Below, in pieces: positions 37,882 through 48,827 of a DNA stretch of 64,000 bases. Within the stretch, counting starts at the first letter, position 1; every line of letters starts with the position of its first letter. The position numbers and the translations under genes are program-made. The DNA is from Geovibrio ferrireducens. GTDB lineage: Bacteria; Chrysiogenota; Deferribacteres; Deferribacterales; Geovibrionaceae. The notes under the pieces were generated by a model. That model saw only the letters and a list, made by a program, of their open reading frames with translations. It was not told the DNA's origin and ran no database searches. The stretch spans positions 1 through 64,000 of the forward strand of contig NZ_JAJAPB010000015.1 of NCBI RefSeq assembly GCF_026226615.1, in the 5' to 3' direction.

Positions 37882-39036
37882 GTGAAAAAAACCATGGGGG
37901 GTCGAGTGGGTAACGAGGGTTTCTTTGAAGAACAGTCAGCTAACTCAAGGCTTAAAACAAAACTAGTTACTGAATATTTTAAAACATGGGTTTCCATAAT
38001 GACAATGAATGCAAGAAATAAAGGTCTGACAAGGTTGCATTATGTTGATCTTTATGCGGGCAAGGGTGTTTATAAAGATGGTACTCCTTCAACCCCGATA
38101 CAGATATTAGATATTTTATTAAATGATAATAATATTAATCAATTTATAAACTTGACTTTTAATGAAGGGAACCCAAAATTTTATAATGATTTAAAAGAAA
38201 ATATTGAGAGACATCCTGTCTATGAGAAGTTAAAATCGCGTATTCAAGTATATAATAAGGAAGTTGATAGCAATTTTCTTGAAACTTTTAAATTTAGCAA
38301 TGAACCCAAGTTCTTATTTTTAGATCCGTTTGGTTATAAAGGTATAGATGTAAGAACTGTTGGGCGGGCGTTAAAGGACTTCGGCTCAGATGGGATTATT
38401 TTTTTCAATTACAACAGGATCAATCGTGATATAGCAAATAAAAACGTTTCGCCTCTCATAAATTCAATTTTTGGTTCAGAGAAAGCTGAGGAGATCAGGT
38501 GTGAAATGCAGCAGTGCACAGTTGAAAGTCGTGAACAGTATGTTGTTGACAGTTTTGCTGAATCCTTACAACAGCAAGGGTTGAAATATTTGGTACGGTT
38601 TAGGTTTATGCGAGCAGACAAAAATAGTCCTTCGCATTATTTAATTTTTGCATCAAAACATGAAAAAGGTTATGAGGAAATTAAAGAGGTAATTGTAAAA
38701 AACACTTGTGATGAGGATGGCTTTGGTCATTTTGAGTTTAATCCAAAGTTAGGCTCATGCGGTGTCAGCATATATGAAAGATTGACTGAGAGCAACGAAC
38801 AACTCGCGGATGAACTACTTGATAGATTTAAAGGAAGAACTATTTCTGTAAAAAAGATATATCAGGAGCATCATGTGGGGACAAATTTCGTGTTGAAAAA
38901 CTACAGAAAGATATTGAGAATGTTAGAGCTTAATGGAAAGGTGAAAGTTTCTGATATTAATGTGCTAAAAAAAACCAGAAAGGCCCATCACTTAAAAAGC
39001 GGACTTTTGTCTGAGAATGATTTAATAACTTTTTAG
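37882..39036 (+). CDS. Three-Cys-motif partner protein TcmP
   Basis: 384 residues; family named for its constant pairing with the Gp37/Gp68 three-Cys protein. The N-terminal part looks like a class I methyltransferase fold: LHYVDLYAGKGVY near 55 and FLFLDPFGYKGIDV near 150 could bind a SAM-like ligand, though the catalytic DPPY is DPFG. Residues about 320-365 (TISVKKIYQEHHVGTNFV and the following helix) resemble a winged helix. Codon use is extremely AT-rich: the 60 bases from 38101 hold only 8 G/C by my count, against 29 in the 60 from 37201. The start is unsure: GTG 37882, ATG 37894 or GTG 37906. Function not established to my knowledge. Confidence 0.85.
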   Translation: MKKTMGGRVGNEGFFEEQSANSRLKTKLVTEYFKTWVSIMTMNARNKGLTRLHYVDLYAGKGVYKDGTPSTPIQILDILLNDNNINQFINLTFNEGNPKFYNDLKENIERHPVYEKLKSRIQVYNKEVDSNFLETFKFSNEPKFLFLDPFGYKGIDVRTVGRALKDFGSDGIIFFNYNRINRDIANKNVSPLINSIFGSEKAEEIRCEMQQCTVESREQYVVDSFAESLQQQGLKYLVRFRFMRADKNSPSHYLIFASKHEKGYEEIKEVIVKNTCDEDGFGHFEFNPKLGSCGVSIYERLTESNEQLADELLDRFKGRTISVKKIYQEHHVGTNFVLKNYRKILRMLELNGKVKVSDINVLKKTRKAHHLKSGLLSENDLITF

Positions 39037-39049
39037 ATAGGATACTGTT

Positions 39050-39760
39050 ATGGCAACAAAAATAGAATGGACGGAAACAACATGGAATCCTGTAACTGGA
39101 TGTTCAAAAATTAGTGATGGCTGTGCAAATTGCTACGCAGAAAAAATGGCTCGTCGTTTATGTTTAATGGGACAGGAAAAATATAAAAACGGTTTTCAGC
39201 TTACACTACACAGAGATATATTAGCTGAACCAATTGGGTGGAAAAAAGGGCGTATGGTTTTTGTGTGCTCAATGAGTGATTTGTTTCATAAAGATGTCCC
39301 CTATGAATTTACACGTGAAGTTTTTTCTGTAATGCGTATTGCTAATCAACATATTTTTCAAGTTCTTACAAAAAGAAGTGATCGTTTGGCAGAGTTTGCA
39401 TCACTAATAAAGTGGCCTTCAAATGTTTGGGCGGGGGTTACTGTAGAAAATCATAGAGTCATAAACCGGATTGATGATTTAAAAAAGGTTGATGCTCCCG
39501 TAAAGTTTCTTTCTGTAGAACCGCTTATAGGAGCTTTGGGTTCTATCAATTTAAATGGTATTGATTGGGTTATAGTTGGCGGTGAATCAGGCCATGGGGC
39601 AAGACCAATGAAGAAAGAGTGGGTTGATGAGATTAAAGAGCAGTGCTTTAAGACTAATACTCCGTTTTTCTTTAAACAGTGGGGCGGAGTTGATAAGAAA
39701 AAGGCCGGTCGACAGCTTGACTCCAGGACTTATGATGAGATGCCTTTAGTGTTTGCATGA
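39050..39760 (+). CDS. Phage Gp37/Gp68-family (DUF5131) three-Cys protein
   Basis: 236 residues. [20 protein letters not shown] carries the three cysteines as Cx6Cx2C, like a radical-SAM cluster but with wider spacing. Conserved blocks [61 protein letters not shown] and FFKQWGG give a repeating strand-helix pattern like a TIM barrel. The family occurs in phages and bacteria beside TcmP. It starts 13 bases after the TcmP stop, so the two are one transcription unit. AT-rich like TcmP. The reaction is unknown. Confidence 0.88.
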
Positions 39761-43006: not shown

Positions 43007-43094
43007 TTGGTGTTGATTTGATTTTGATTTGGTGTTATGAGTTTCATTAATCGTGTTATAGGTGAGATTAAGGTTACATATCATGGAGGAAGTT

Positions 43095-45290
43095 TTGAGA
43101 AGATTTATTATCGGCGTGTGTGCAGCACTTTATTTGGCATGTCCGGCTATGGCGGATGAAAGCCTTATGAGGACAACAATTTACCTGGATGAAGTTTCAG
43201 TAACTGCCGAATCCGCAGCAGATTCAGACTTGAATGTCAGTGAGCAGAAGGTGGCTGAAAAGAACAGAAGCGGCAATATAGCCGACTTTCTTGTAAAAGA
43301 TCCGGAGATTTCCTTCAAGCGCAAGACTGCCTTCGGTGACAGCGGCGACATCATCTCCATCAGAGGGATGGAAAGCAAAAGGATCATGCTTAACCTTGAT
43401 GGCAGAAACATCAGCTCAACAGGGAACGTCGGGGGCAACTATATAGATTTCGGCACTATTCCCCTTGATAATATTGAGAGAATTGAGGTTATAAAGGGCG
43501 GCAGCAGTGCGGAATACGGCAACAACGCGCTGGGCGGCGTGATTAATGCCTATACCAAACGCCCCTCCAAAGAGGCATCCGCATCAATATATGCCACAAT
43601 GGGCGGCTGGGATAATGCGGGTGACTATCATAACATACGGGGCAGCTTTGCAAAAAGCTTCGGCGCATTCGGGGTGAGTCTGGGGATGAGCCATCAGGAG
43701 GCGGACGCATACCTGAGAAACAATGACTATGAATCACTGCATATCAATCCGAAGTTCTATCTGAGTCTGCCTTGGCAGGGGGAGCTTGTTCTTGGGTATA
43801 AGTACAGCAAAACCACAAGAGGGCTCATCCGCTCAAACAGGGATGACGGCAAGCCGTCGTCTGACTCGGATCCGTCTGTTCCGGGCTTTGATACGCCCAT
43901 AGACAGCAATTATCCCACAGCCAGCGGTGAATATTTCGCAGGCGGCTCACCCACCCCCTCAATGAGCGTAATAGGTGACGGAGCATACTGGGATAAGATA
44001 AGGCATATGCTGGATGTTACATACACTCAGCCCATAGGCGACAGGGCCTACATTGAGGCCATGGCTTATAAAAACTATGAAGACCGCTATGAGAAAAACT
44101 ATGCCGATGTTGCCGCAAGGCTCCAGATACTGACTGCGAACCCGAACGATTTTAATCAGGCACTCACGTCTGACGGCGACCTTGTGCTGGATAGAAAAAT
44201 CAAGGTGGACAGGAGCTATGGCTACAAGCTGAAAACCGTTGCGGAACTTGAGAAGCATACCCTCACCGCGGGAGCGGAATCAAAGGCTATGAGATCCGGC
44301 GGCATAGAGGTGCGTTATGTGGACACCAACTACAATAAGGCCGGAGCTAACCAGTGGACAGGAACCATGGCGGGAAGCAGCGGCTCAGAGGCTGATGTTT
44401 ACGGCTTTTTCATTTCCGACAGTTTCAGAGTAACCGACAGGCTCACTGCTGATTTCGGCATGCGCTACGACACATACGATGCCAAAAGCGGCGACAACAG
44501 CTATGAGGACGGCAAAGCAACGCCGAAGGCAGGGCTCACATATGCTCTGACACCGAATGACAAGTTATCGCTGTTTGTTTATCAGAACTACAGAACCCCC
44601 ACTCTGCCTGAACTGTGGTGGAACTCTCAGGCCAGTTCGGGCGACAGCACGGTAAATGTGCCCTATCTCATAGGGAAAAAGCTCAAACCCGAATCCGCCA
44701 CAGGTATAGATGCCGCCTATGCCCACACTTTTCCCGGCAAAGGCAGGGTTAAGCTTTCCGCTTTCTATTATGATATAGAGGACTATATACTGCACAAGGC
44801 GGTTTATGTGAACCGTCCGCAGAGTTATCAGGCATGGGCGGCGTATAATACGGATGCTGAATTCTACGGAACAACGCTGGACGGTTCCTACGATGTAACA
44901 CGCACGCTCAGCGCACGCCTCAGCGGAACATATCAGAAAACAAAGAAAAAGAACGACCCCTCAGACCCGGACAATACTCTTGAGGAAGTGGACTACATCC
45001 CCGATGTAAAGGCCTCTGCAGGATTTAGCTGGGATATAACAAAAAAAATCAGTCTGGATATGGGGCTCAACTATACCGGCAGACGTTTTTACACCGTAAA
45101 CACAGCCACTCTGACAAAAGGGGAGCTTGGCGGCTACACCACTGTTGATGCGAGCCTCCGCTACAGGCTTGATAAGCGTACAGTGCTTGAGATATACGGT
45201 GAAAACCTGACGGATAAGGAATATGAAGAGACATGGGGCTATCCCGCCATGGGGATCAATATGGGAGCAAGCGTAAAATGGACACTGTAG
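43095..45290 (+). CDS. TonB-dependent receptor
   Basis: Outer-membrane active-transport barrel, about 731 residues. Signal peptide MRRFIIGVCAALYLACPAMA precedes a TonB-box-like stretch (IYLDEVSVTAE). The plug has KTAFGDSGDIISIRGMESKR and IERIEVIKGGSSAEYGNNAL, and the barrel ends with a terminal strand closing on MGASVKWTL. I choose TTG 43095, with GGAGG five bases upstream and a clean signal peptide; GTG 43062 would add eleven extra residues. The adjacent methyltransferase and binding protein suggest a chelated-metal ligand (ferric siderophore or corrinoid). Confidence 0.92.
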   Translation: MRRFIIGVCAALYLACPAMADESLMRTTIYLDEVSVTAESAADSDLNVSEQKVAEKNRSGNIADFLVKDPEISFKRKTAFGDSGDIISIRGMESKRIMLNLDGRNISSTGNVGGNYIDFGTIPLDNIERIEVIKGGSSAEYGNNALGGVINAYTKRPSKEASASIYATMGGWDNAGDYHNIRGSFAKSFGAFGVSLGMSHQEADAYLRNNDYESLHINPKFYLSLPWQGELVLGYKYSKTTRGLIRSNRDDGKPSSDSDPSVPGFDTPIDSNYPTASGEYFAGGSPTPSMSVIGDGAYWDKIRHMLDVTYTQPIGDRAYIEAMAYKNYEDRYEKNYADVAARLQILTANPNDFNQALTSDGDLVLDRKIKVDRSYGYKLKTVAELEKHTLTAGAESKAMRSGGIEVRYVDTNYNKAGANQWTGTMAGSSGSEADVYGFFISDSFRVTDRLTADFGMRYDTYDAKSGDNSYEDGKATPKAGLTYALTPNDKLSLFVYQNYRTPTLPELWWNSQASSGDSTVNVPYLIGKKLKPESATGIDAAYAHTFPGKGRVKLSAFYYDIEDYILHKAVYVNRPQSYQAWAAYNTDAEFYGTTLDGSYDVTRTLSARLSGTYQKTKKKNDPSDPDNTLEEVDYIPDVKASAGFSWDITKKISLDMGLNYTGRRFYTVNTATLTKGELGGYTTVDASLRYRLDKRTVLEIYGENLTDKEYEETWGYPAMGINMGASVKWTL

Positions 45291-46039
45291 CAGCGAGAGC
45301 ACAGCAGGAAAAATTCTGGAATAACAAAGCAAAAAACTTCCCCCGTTATGAAGCGGGGGAAGATAATTATGAGTCACGCATGCTGAACATCGCCCGCAGT
45401 CACGGGGTGGTTTTCAAGGATGCGGATATTCTTGATGTCGGCTGCGGAAGCGGCATGTACACCATCCGCCTTGCGAAAGAGGCAAAGCATGTCACCGCTG
45501 CTGATATATCAAGCGAGATGCTGCGCATACTGAAAGATGACGCGGAGGCGCAGGGTATAAATAATATCGTGACATACCTCGGCGACTGGCTTGAATTTAA
45601 ATCCGACAGGAAGTTCGATGTTGTTTTCTGTTCCATGACACCGGCTGTGCAGTCTGAGGAAGGCAGGCTTAAGGTTCTGGAGCATGCAAAAGGCTGGGTT
45701 GTATATATGGGTTTTGCCGGAAGGATGGAGTCATGCATGCTTTCCGGCCTTTATGAGCATTACGGTATTATACCCAAAAAGTTCAACGATGCCCCCGCCA
45801 TGCGTGAGTGGCTTCAGAACAGAAGAGCGGAGTACACGGCATATCCTGTCGAGGGTGAATGGATTGTGCCCAGAACCTATGAGGAGGCAGCTTCAAACTG
45901 CCGTGACATGCTTTCAATATACGGCGTGACACCGGAGGATGACTTGCTGGAAAAACATATCAGGCCTCATCTGGATGAAAGCGGAAAGTACATCGAGCGC
46001 ACCTCATACAGCATAGAGATGATAATATGGCACGTCTGA
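45278..46039 (+). CDS. Class I SAM-dependent methyltransferase in the uptake cluster
   Basis: 253 residues. The SAM site ILDVGCGSGMYTIRLAKEAK near 50 is intact, followed by VTAADISSEMLRIL and FDVVFCSMTPAVQ. It starts at ATG 45278, inside the last codons of the receptor (13-base overlap), and its stop overlaps the binding-protein gene by 13 bases. Because it is locked between uptake genes, it may modify the transported chelate or a product of its breakdown. The substrate is unknown. Confidence 0.88.
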   Translation: MDTVAARAQQEKFWNNKAKNFPRYEAGEDNYESRMLNIARSHGVVFKDADILDVGCGSGMYTIRLAKEAKHVTAADISSEMLRILKDDAEAQGINNIVTYLGDWLEFKSDRKFDVVFCSMTPAVQSEEGRLKVLEHAKGWVVYMGFAGRMESCMLSGLYEHYGIIPKKFNDAPAMREWLQNRRAEYTAYPVEGEWIVPRTYEEAASNCRDMLSIYGVTPEDDLLEKHIRPHLDESGKYIERTSYSIEMIIWHV

Positions 46040-47085
46040 TTATATGTCTTTTCGCCCTTCTGCTTGCTCCTGCCGCATGGGCGAAGGCTATTACCGATGT
46101 TTTCGGCCGCACAGTCAATGTGCCTGATAGGGTCGAAAGGGTGATTTCCATCGGCAGCAGCATGGCATTTGTTACCTATCTCAGGGCACAGAATCTGGCT
46201 GTCGGTGTTGAGGATGTGGAGAAAGCTGCGGATTACACCAAGCCGTATATTCAGGCTAATTTTGAGACGGTGAAGGATCTCCCCGTGATAGGCAAAGCGG
46301 GCGCGGTGCGCATGCCGAACTATGAGAGGATTATAAGCCTCAAGCCTGATGTGGTTTTTATAGTATCAACGGACAGGGGCGAGCCGGATCTTGTTCAGCG
46401 TAAACTGAATATCCCGGTTGTTGCTGTGGGCTACGGTCTGCCGAACTTTGATCAGGATGTTTTCTTCCGTTCGATCAGGATTACTGCCGAGGTTCTCAGC
46501 AGGAAGGAGAGAGCAGAGGAACTCATATCATACATAAAAAGCCTGACAGTTAAGCTGAACCGTGCACCGGAGAAGAAGGCCGAGGCTTATCTGGGCGCTA
46601 TTTCCTATAAAGGGCATCAGGGGCTGAACAGCACTGCGGCGGATTTTCTTCCCATGCAGCTTGCAGGGATAAAAAACACTGCTGACGGAGAGCGGAAAAG
46701 CGGCCAGTTCTTCGTGAACCGTGAGTATGTTCTGGCGAAGAATCCGGAAATAATTTTCATCGACGGAAACGGTTTGCCGCTTATTGCTGATGACGCGCGG
46801 AAGCACCCTGAGTTTTACTCAAGGCTCAGGGCGTTCAGAAACGGGAAGGTCTTTCTGCTTCTCCCCCATACAACCTACTTTACTAACCCAGAGATGCTTT
46901 ATGTAAATGCTTTTCTTATGGCGAAGTCGGCATATCCTGAAATATACGGCGACATAGATCCGGCCGCAGTGGCGGATGAGATTGTATCTGCATTCACAGG
47001 CAAGGGAATATACGGTTTTCTTAAGAAGACAACTGGCGGCTACGGTGTTCTGGAGCTGACCTCTGACGGCATAAAAATCAAATAA
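46027..47085 (+). CDS. Periplasmic metal-chelate binding protein (FecB/BtuF-like)
   Basis: 352 residues with signal peptide MARLIICLFALLLAPAAWA. ITDVFGRTVNVPDRVERVIS and RIISLKPDVVFIVSTDRGEP are typical of type III solute-binding proteins for iron-siderophore or cobalamin import. SSTADF-like and PEIIFIDGN segments lie later. No permease or ATPase gene follows; a terminator does. It presumably delivers to an ABC importer encoded elsewhere. Confidence 0.88.
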   Translation: MARLIICLFALLLAPAAWAKAITDVFGRTVNVPDRVERVISIGSSMAFVTYLRAQNLAVGVEDVEKAADYTKPYIQANFETVKDLPVIGKAGAVRMPNYERIISLKPDVVFIVSTDRGEPDLVQRKLNIPVVAVGYGLPNFDQDVFFRSIRITAEVLSRKERAEELISYIKSLTVKLNRAPEKKAEAYLGAISYKGHQGLNSTAADFLPMQLAGIKNTADGERKSGQFFVNREYVLAKNPEIIFIDGNGLPLIADDARKHPEFYSRLRAFRNGKVFLLLPHTTYFTNPEMLYVNAFLMAKSAYPEIYGDIDPAAVADEIVSAFTGKGIYGFLKKTTGGYGVLELTSDGIKIK

Positions 47086-47112
47086 AAAAGGGAGCCTCCT
47101 GCGGGGGCTCCC
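47084..47112 (-). terminator. Terminator of the second MFS gene (bidirectional position)
   Basis: A ten-base-pair stem GGGAGCCTCC/GGGGGCTCCC with a three-base loop (one T-G pair) is flanked on the minus strand by TTTTTT. It lies between two convergent genes and is nearly identical to the hairpin at 48534. Confidence 0.8.
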
Positions 47113-47134
47113 TGAAAGTTTAAGCTGACACGGC

Positions 47135-48271
47135 TTAACTTTTCATGGTCTTCACCAGCAGGGCGGCGGCAGCAAAAAGCATTACCGCCTGCAGCAGAAG
47201 AATACTGCTGATAAGCTCCGCAGACCCGAACACTCCTGTTATAAACGGCACAGTGAAATACCCAATGCCCCAGAACATGAAGTAAACTCCGGACGAGGCT
47301 CCCGCATGGGAGGAATCCGCCTTAACCTGAAGATACAGCATGGAAGCTATGCTGAATATTCCGAGCCCTGATGTAAGGAGCAGCAACCCTGCGAAAAGCA
47401 GAATCCCGCTGTTGTGTATGATTACCAGCAAGCCTGCCCCCATGGACAGCACTCCTGTCGTAAGTGCCTGTCTGAGGTTCTGTATTTTTACAATCCTCCC
47501 TGAGACGATCTGAATTATCCCCAGAGTAAAAAAGCTGAGAGAAAAGGCGATGTTTGCAAGACCGTGATCCATATTTTTCACCGACAGCACAAATGCCGGG
47601 ATAACGCTGACAATCAGCCCGTATGATGCCCCGTACATAACTATTCCCGCCAGAACAGATTTGTTGAGCAGTCTGATGATGCTCATCATTCCGGCTTTGG
47701 CTTCGATTTTCCTATCTGTCCGGTATTTCGGTGCAGCCAGTGCCAGTATTATGAATCCTCCGGTCACGGATGCGGCGGAAAAGCCGAGGAATGTGGACTG
47801 GGCTCCGAAGACATCCGCAATATATGTGCCCGCCAGAGGGCCAGCGGTGAGTCCGAAGTGGAAGGAAGCCGTGTACCAGCCCATTACCTGTGCCTTATTC
47901 TCAGGGTAAAGAAGCGCCAGCAGTACGGGCGAAAGCGACCAGAGCGGTGCTTCCCCCACTCCCTGAATAACCCTGCCGATGATTAGCCACTGAACCGAAT
48001 CAGCCGAATAATAAACCATGCCGGACACTCCGCACAGAAGAAAGCCTGCTATGATGACCGGTCTGAAACCGAAACGGTCCGCAATTTTTCCGAGCGGGTA
48101 CTGGGAAAGGATATAGGCCAGACCGAAAGCCGAGGCGAGAAAACCGCTCATGGCGGCGGAACCTGACAGCTTTGTCATTTTATCCGGCAGGTAGGTAAAA
48201 CACACTCCGAGACCGAACATAATGACGAATATACTGCTGTTGACAGCAGCCATATAACGTATTGATGACAT
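47135..48271 (-). CDS. MFS transporter preceded by a leader peptide
   Basis: 378 residues with about 12 membrane segments. GLAYILSQYPLGKIADRFG near 50 is the MFS loop 2-3 motif, and LIIGRVIQGVGEAPLWSLSP near 90 is the proton-drug-antiporter style segment. It stands next to the metal-chelate uptake genes, so siderophore export or chelate import is possible. The stretch 48272-48533 upstream holds a 19-codon ORF, a promoter and a palindrome. Confidence 0.85.
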   Translation of the reverse strand: MSSIRYMAAVNSSIFVIMFGLGVCFTYLPDKMTKLSGSAAMSGFLASAFGLAYILSQYPLGKIADRFGFRPVIIAGFLLCGVSGMVYYSADSVQWLIIGRVIQGVGEAPLWSLSPVLLALLYPENKAQVMGWYTASFHFGLTAGPLAGTYIADVFGAQSTFLGFSAASVTGGFIILALAAPKYRTDRKIEAKAGMMSIIRLLNKSVLAGIVMYGASYGLIVSVIPAFVLSVKNMDHGLANIAFSLSFFTLGIIQIVSGRIVKIQNLRQALTTGVLSMGAGLLVIIHNSGILLFAGLLLLTSGLGIFSIASMLYLQVKADSSHAGASSGVYFMFWGIGYFTVPFITGVFGSAELISSILLLQAVMLFAAAALLVKTMKS

Positions 48272-48365
48272 AATAATAACTCCTTGGATAAACGGACAAA
48301 ATCTCAGGAGTACGCTTTAGGTTGCGGTGTTGGTTTAAAACGGACTCCGAATGCCGGTTAAAGAA

Positions 48366-48425
48366 TCAGGCAGCCGGAGGAGGAGGGGTAAGACCGAAAA
48401 GTTTGTGGAAATCTGAGGCAGACAT
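48366..48425 (-). CDS. 19-residue leader peptide ORF with four prolines
   Basis: On the minus strand MSASDFHKLFGLTPPPPAA runs from ATG 48425 to TGA 48366. AGGGG lies eight bases before the ATG. It begins about 18 bases after the predicted transcript start and ends 95 bases before the MFS ATG. The four consecutive prolines would stall ribosomes without EF-P, so translation could control a downstream structure (a GGAGT/ACTCC pairing is possible in the gap). No similar gene is known to me; the ORF could be chance. Confidence 0.5.
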   Translation of the reverse strand: MSASDFHKLFGLTPPPPAA

Positions 48426-48449
48426 TTTTAATTCCCCTGTTTTTTTGTG

Positions 48450-48493
48450 AGTATTACTGCGGCCGGGCGCATTGTCAACATATATATTATATG
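48450..48493 (-). promoter_or_regulatory. Promoter and palindromic operator for the MFS leader transcript
   Basis: Minus strand: perfect TTGACA (48473-48478) and TAATAC (48451-48456), spacer 16 bases. Directly upstream, 48479-48493 is a perfect inverted repeat, CATATA-TAT-TATATG, a possible regulator site. Confidence 0.55.
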
Positions 48494-48533
48494 TGATGTC
48501 CGTTGAGGATACCCGCTGACGGGCACTGCGGGA

Positions 48534-48563
48534 TAAAAAAAGGGAGCCTCTTGCGGGGCTCCC
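48534..48563 (-). terminator. Terminator of the rpsF-ssb-rpsR operon
   Basis: On the minus strand GGGAGCC/GGCTCCC with an eight-base loop is followed by TTTTTTTT, 34 bases after the rpsR stop. Nearly the same sequence as the hairpin at 47084. Confidence 0.88.
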
Positions 48564-48596
48564 TGTCTGTTGTTTTAATTGCGGTTCAGCCTGATA

Positions 48597-48827
48597 TTAT
48601 CTGTCAAGGCTGAAGGGGAGAAGGATGATGGTACGTGCGGTTTTAACAGCAGAAGCGAGTGCTCTCTGGTGTCTTGCGCATGTGCCTGTAAGCCTTCTGG
48701 GCATTATTTTACCTCTTTCGGTTACGAAACCTCTGAGGAGTTTAGCGTCTTTGTAGTCTATATCGATTTTTTCCGCGCAGAACCTGCACACTTTCTTTTT
48801 CTGAAATTTTCTTCTTAAAACAGCCAT
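48597..48827 (-). CDS. rpsR: 30S ribosomal protein S18
   Basis: 76 residues, standard length. [12 protein letters not shown] carries the CxxC of the zinc-type S18, and [22 protein letters not shown] is the conserved C-terminal half. Last gene of rpsF-ssb-rpsR. Binds S6 on the small subunit. rplI, often next in line, is not here. Confidence 0.97.

Follow-up and report, generated by a model that had tools for sequence, protein, structure and literature searches.

Small-molecule-sensing leader peptides are known for few gene families and in few lineages. The closest described relatives of the leader examined here are those of the ermC, cat and cmlA attenuators, with which it shares a short leader ORF, a four-stranded RNA in which pairings 1:2 and 3:4 stand against 2:3, and a stand-alone target gene of resistance or efflux type. 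Unlike them, the leaders described here carry a [hydrophobic]-[S/T]-PP(P) core and not the known Erm, Cat or CmlA arrest sequences, and they occur in two anaerobe-rich lineages without a match in Rfam 15. The known catA86 and cmlA leader peptide sequences differ from these polyproline leaders. With leaders of this phenicol type, the polyproline leaders share only the rule of A, S or T at position minus 1 (PMC8987054).

Three further systems resemble the leaders in part. Salmonella mgtL and mgtCBR also have proline codons in a short leader before a transporter gene, on which EF-P could act (PMC6460261, PMC3641672), but there the prolines are scattered through the leader and act on transcription of a Mg2+ ATPase operon, whereas here the prolines are consecutive and peptide-terminal and the switch would act on the Shine-Dalgarno sequence (SD) of an MFS gene. 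The copper-sensing upstream ORFs CutF and CruR likewise possess a C-terminal proline-rich motif, and a CutF stem-loop hides the SD of the next gene (PMC9973294, PMC9426467). CutF, however, is exported and carries a CxxxC metal motif, whereas the leaders here are 13-19 aa long without CxxxC or a signal peptide; none of the ten peptides described below has the two cysteines of a CxxxC/Cys metal-binding motif, which sets them outside the CutF/CruR group. In RAPP-like arrest peptides (monitors of the SecM/ApdA type), Pro-Pro arrest near the C-terminus regulates a downstream gene (PMC10987492, PMC12992588), as may happen here. The leaders nevertheless lack R-A/G before PP, are far too short to emerge from the ribosome and monitor secretion, and precede an MFS target; an Arg-Ala/Gly-Pro-Pro core occurs in none of the ten, the core being [VAIL]-[ST]-PP, and they are not RAPP-like in this sense. 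Our literature search, whose coverage of subscription journals was thin, returned no description of the motif or of polyproline leaders, and none of such leaders tied to an MFS exporter; the polyproline-leader MFS switch therefore appears not to have been described previously. A compact polyproline leader accompanies one transporter subfamily in two phyla, with an RNA switch in most cases, and what the leaders sense and what the exporter handles become directly testable by reporter.

The promoter, leader and transporter unit

The window, a 64,000-nt stretch of a Geovibrio ferrireducens contig, contains on its minus strand a promoter, a leader ORF, a spacer and an MFS gene, with the following features.

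48478-48494, minus strand: inverted repeat ACATATA-ATA-TATATGT (arms of 7 nt around a 3-nt centre), which has one base in common with the -35
48450..48478, minus strand: sigma-70-type promoter TTGACA-17-AATACT, predicted to drive the leader-MFS transcript; kept in G002 with spacer 18 and in G001 with spacer 17
48366..48425, minus strand: leader ORF MSASDFHKLFGLTPPPPAA, 19 codons plus TGA, with the ribosome site AGGGGAA 5' of its ATG
48381..48389, minus strand: Thr-Pro-Pro codons ACC CCT CCT, where the [S/T]-P-P core begins; mostly outside helix 1:2
47135..48271, minus strand: gene for a 378-aa MFS transporter, drug:H+ antiporter-like (PF07690, MFS_1, E=4.9e-45); the putative controlled gene

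The best PDB sequence matches of the transporter are YajR-like proteins, QacA, NorA, VMAT2 and EmrB, which are drug:H+ antiporters and their relatives, and it passes none of the NCBIfam cut-offs. As judged from sequence, the gene is a stand-alone gene of predicted efflux type whose neighbours vary by genome.

We compared the window (G000) with the two other members of the genus set, G001 and G002, whose MFS orthologs have 68% and 81% identity, respectively. All three keep the promoter, the leader ORF and the spacer. The gap between the leader stop and the MFS ATG (48271), originally given as 95 bases, measures 94 nt, and this spacer aligns gap-free across the genus with 81-86% identity, against 41-55% at fourfold-degenerate sites of the MFS gene. 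The promoter had been read as TTGACA-16-TAATAC; its TTGACA (48478-48473) holds, but the relatives conserve AATACT (48455-48450) behind a 17-nt spacer and not TAATAC at 16. The supposed perfect 15-base palindrome abutting the -35 is in fact the 7+3+7 inverted repeat, which shares one base with the -35. We sought this repeat in G002 and G001 and found it absent, with weak, different repeats in its place, and for this reason we reject it as an operator.

The 19-codon ORF with its AGGGG ribosome site and PPPP is present as predicted at 48425-48366 on the minus strand and is conserved in all three genus members. The orthologous leaders, MIASDFHDRFGLTPPPPAA in G002 and MNLNHRFSLTPPPPTA in G001, end in the same C-terminus as that of the window, whereas the N-terminal half varies freely, length included. 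In the L-T-P-P codons, three of four third positions vary across the genus but none of the eight first and second positions does (P about 0.018), and every change is synonymous, a codon pattern from which we infer that the leader is translated. The frame-breaking or random changes that were to count against a leader peptide were sought in these close relatives and not found.

The leader peptide in two phyla

MFS homologs were sought in 385 genomes and then in the family and order of the one further clear homolog that this search returned, G073, from another phylum (full-length identity 32%, E=3.4e-52). Ahead of the G073 gene lie TTGACA and the leader MHLHHLNVSPPPPL. The family and order search added six more homologs, each with a leader (MNLLLWNASPPPPPC, MNVLLWNASPPPPCQ, MIHPLLCVSPPPC, MLFPLLSVSPPPC, MHQHRWTVSPPPPCR and MSSLLFSISPPLR), bringing the subfamily found to ten: three in the window's Deferribacterales genus and seven in one family of the other phylum, at about 30% protein identity. 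Of the ten sequences, three and about five clusters are independent. No subfamily MFS gene was found on a plasmid.

A leader of 13-19 codons, with a ribosome site and an ATG, precedes every one of the ten genes, and each closes with [V/A/I/L]-[S/T]-P-P, as many as three additional prolines and one or two residues before the stop. The seven leaders of the other phylum take the form [VAI]SPP(P)(P)(P)x1-2-stop, and that of G415 has only two prolines (SPPLR). Scanning the 110 nt ahead of the leader ATG at each of the ten loci, we found a single TTGAC[A/C], 51-72 nt 5' of that ATG, the hexamer lying at -54 to -72 in the seven loci of the other phylum. An ORF of the leader form arose in 0.28% of dinucleotide-shuffled upstream regions as against ten of ten real ones; in a control on real DNA, 6 of 738 segments of 420 nt matched, with eight matching peptides, two of them longer-start versions of genuine leaders. 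The lineages use different codons for the S/T residue (TCC, TCT and TCG; ACC, ACA and ACT) and for the hydrophobic residue but keep the class of amino acid, which points to selection on the peptide.

Pattern searches extended this set no further. The strict form LTPPPP[AT]A-stop, searched across the phylum, occurs in the genus only, and the looser PPPP[AT]A-stop gave chance-like matches in 57 of the 385 genomes, where no listed short ORF was a convincing MFS leader. A match in G003 ahead of a cstA-like gene was discarded, as there is no ORF there.

RNA pairings and a candidate mechanism

Four RNA strands and a small hairpin, all on the minus strand of the window, run from the last codons of the leader to the Shine-Dalgarno of the MFS gene.

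48369..48379, minus strand: strand 1, CTCCGGCTGCC, the last Pro-Pro-Ala-Ala codons; base-paired to strand 2 in each of the three genus members (96.7% of cells paired)
48345..48355, minus strand: strand 2, GGCATTCGGAG, directly 3' of the leader stop; its partner is strand 1, or strand 3 once strand 1 is covered
48313..48342, minus strand: small hairpin P2 (CGTTTTA...TAAAGCG), inside the 2:3 helix (95% of cells paired in the genus alignment)
48301..48311, minus strand: strand 3, ACTCCTGAGAT, an anti-Shine-Dalgarno strand that pairs with the SD in G000, G001 and G002
48279..48284, minus strand: strand 4, the MFS Shine-Dalgarno AGGAGT, sequestered by strand 3

RNA folding gives helix 1:2 a probability of 0.99-1.00 in the genus members. 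The helix between strand 3 (genus consensus RCTCCTGAGAT) and the SD is 100% paired in the genus alignment, and the alternative pairing of strands 2 and 3 extends hairpin P2. Although 97% of pairs are kept in this alignment, the changes are one-sided only, with zero double compensatory changes, so that three sequences give no covariation proof of the pairs. In G435, G415 and G731 other sequences form helix 1:2 (CCCCTCCC/GGGAGGGG in G435 and CCTCCTCTT/AAGAGGAGG in G415, for instance), a sign that it is the pairing, not the sequence, that is kept across lineages. A covariance model of the leader RNA found nothing convincing outside the genus when run phylum-wide and no match in G073; RNA sequence similarity therefore does not cross phyla, though the architecture does. 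The best other match of this model (E=0.008) is a weak one in another genus of the order (L072, G021:C131:3034-3122). Rfam gave no match at the gathering threshold, and none up to E=1 for 48200-48600. In G435, G731 and G415 (L087, L091 and L090), where 170-200 nt separate the leader from the MFS gene, a second conserved hairpin (for example GAACCTGTAATGG...CCGGGTTC) lies between strands 2 and 3.

Opening the SD costs 6.5-8.4 kcal/mol in the three genus members and 6.5-13.3 across G000, G001, G002, G415 and G731, in which an upstream strand sequesters it. Covering strand 1 lowers this cost by 2.1 (G000), 3.9 (G002), 3.7 (G001), 4.8 (G415) and 4.9 kcal/mol (G731), by 1.3 (G411) and 0.6 kcal/mol (G435) in the weaker leaders and, under the thermodynamic model, not at all in G073, G386 and G429. 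Shuffled spacers exceeded both measures together in 2 of 100 cases for G000, 0 of 100 for G002 and for G001, 0 of 60 for G415 and 1 of 60 for G731; for G435 they did so in 24 of 60, and its switch is not above shuffles. When the RNA was ended just before the SD with strand 1 covered, 2:3 formed in the MFE structure of all six leaders tested. At equilibrium the SD is still mostly paired with strand 1 covered (some 1-24% free, varying with leader and model), and the mechanism would therefore require kinetic help during transcription or a further effect of the ribosome.

The attenuator architecture is clear in five or six of the ten leaders. Set against the ermC, cat and cmlA attenuators, all ten loci have a conserved short leader ORF, which is probably translated, behind its own promoter; an alternative pairing that would free the SD is found in G000, G001, G002, G415 and G731, and was not seen in G073, G386 and G429. 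On this comparison the leaders match that broad kind in the leader ORF, in SD sequestration and, in half of them, in the alternative pairing, and would share with it an inducer-dependent arrest. The system is very likely a ribosome-operated on/off switch, and we think it likely that it is a leader-peptide translational attenuator controlling a stand-alone MFS gene of efflux type. The original prediction of a translation-sensing leader peptide controlling the exporter thus gains strong support from the cross-phylum leaders and the conserved SD-sequestering RNA; the palindrome and the metal-chelate link do not survive with it, and strong constitutive stalling is unlikely.

Promoter, leader, C-terminal peptide core and the pairings 1:2, 3:4 and 2:3 are established here as conserved elements, and from them we infer an arrest and its signal. 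By default, the ribosome, aided by EF-P, would clear the leader rapidly and leave, whereupon strand 1 would pair with strand 2 and strand 3 would be free to bind the MFS SD, keeping the gene off. Under some inducing condition the ribosome would pause at the [hydrophobic]-[S/T]-Pro-Pro core and cover strand 1, so that strands 2 and 3 would pair while the SD is still to be transcribed, leaving the SD free.

Any such arrest is probably conditional rather than constitutive. Before PPP, Thr and Cys give the weakest stalling, Ser, Ala and Leu are weak, and Arg, His, Lys and Pro are strong (Starosta et al., PMC4176338). Strong constitutive proline stalling is therefore unlikely, since no polyproline context measured in E. 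coli stalls more weakly than PPP after T/S (PMC4176338), and the conservation of a weak-stalling S/T, the reverse of what one would expect in a constitutive staller, suggests that the arrest is meant to be conditional. The four-proline leaders also contain a PPP preceded by Pro, a context that stalled strongly in one reporter (PMC4176338). Chloramphenicol and linezolid arrest ribosomes best with Ala as the penultimate residue, followed by Ser or Thr (PMC8987054); when Pro1 of these leaders occupies the P-site, S/T stands in that penultimate place, which would fit a leader that pauses only with such an inhibitor bound. Our leading guess for the signal is a small molecule at the peptidyl-transferase centre that the transporter removes. 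A wider and more doubtful proposal, which we put forward tentatively, is that the leaders are conditional arrest peptides of a new family. Their fixed Ser/Thr would keep intrinsic stalling low, and arrest would occur only with a small molecule in the peptidyl-transferase centre and switch on the exporter of that molecule (phenicols and oxazolidinones prefer A/S/T as the penultimate residue); the leader-plus-gene cassette would have spread across phyla.

Close behind the small molecule we rank a reduced supply of EF-P or Pro-tRNA. If the leader sensed proline, Pro-tRNA or EF-P through classical control codons, and not a drug, the MFS protein would move a related metabolite in or out. This is a serious alternative, if on balance an unlikely one, because EF-P is encoded in all seven genomes tested and deleting efp in Salmonella increases mgtA mRNA by way of the mgtL Pro codons (PMC6460261). 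It would suit the two to five consecutive Pro codons of every leader, as well as the CCC/U-C codon pairs, which disturb decoding in E. coli (PMC8129111) and are common in the leaders, where the RNA strand may dictate them. Yet the G415 leader manages with just two prolines, the fixed S/T has no role in a pure control-codon scheme, and the transporter resembles drug:H+ antiporters.

Less probable still is control by RNA only, with a CCUCC-rich strand 1 serving as an anti-SD-like RNA, the prolines incidental, and translation of the leader merely unfolding strand 1 without a peptide-specific pause. The CCU/CCC codons do form an anti-SD-like strand in all leaders, and strands 1/3 and 2/4 are near repeats of each other in G435, G731 and G415. 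Strand 1 is nevertheless read in the Pro frame in all ten, the Pro1-Pro2 codons vary only synonymously in the genus although they lie outside helix 1:2, and the [hydrophobic]-[S/T] before PP is kept through different codons.

We also regard transcription attenuation as improbable. Helix 1:2 would here be an intrinsic terminator, or the leader would expose a Rho site, with the leader ribosome setting read-through as in mgtA/mgtCBR, and in Salmonella the Pro-codon leaders of the mgt genes do act on transcription (PMC3641672, PMC6460261). After helix 1:2 come UCCGUUUUAA in the window and CUUUUCC in G435 and G731, but these U-tracts have at most four U, and a terminator scan called none at helix 1:2 in any of the three, which disposes of an intrinsic terminator there; the conserved helix of strand 3 and the SD indicates control at translation initiation. 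Finally, an untranslated chance ORF within a conserved untranslated leader is scarcely credible given its recurrence at ten of ten loci against 0.28% in shuffles, a ribosome site and ATG at each and the third-position pattern in the genus.

Genomic surroundings of the unit

In G002 the leader-MFS unit is syntenic with the window, whereas its G001 surroundings are unrelated and lack the TonB receptor, methyltransferase, binding protein and ssb/rpsF neighbours. The conserved unit is therefore promoter, leader and MFS gene. The surroundings of the seven distant MFS homologs change from genome to genome, with no neighbour common to them. The suggested tie to nearby metal-chelate genes, here the TonB, methyltransferase and binding-protein genes, falls for these reasons.

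Those genes, for a TonB receptor, a SAM methyltransferase and a periplasmic binding protein, occupy 43062-47085 on the plus strand, tightly packed with overlapping ends. This cluster, possibly for metal-chelate uptake, is conserved in G002 and was not found around the G001 MFS gene. On the other side of the unit, a terminator hairpin (48564-48541) ends the gene group with ssb and rpsF (the latter annotated from sequence), so that convergence with the upstream neighbours is prevented. Near-identical terminator hairpins, GGGAGCC...GGCTCCC, flank the MFS gene at about 47090-47115 and 48541-48564, in G002 also but not in G001.

Further away, at 37882-39760 on the plus strand, lies a pair of genes for a 384-aa protein (three-Cys-motif-partner-like) and a 236-aa protein (phage Gp37/DUF5131-like), both assigned by eye. 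G002 lacks the pair at the syntenic site, the racemase and aminotransferase genes that flank it standing side by side there; the difference would represent a recent insertion or loss.
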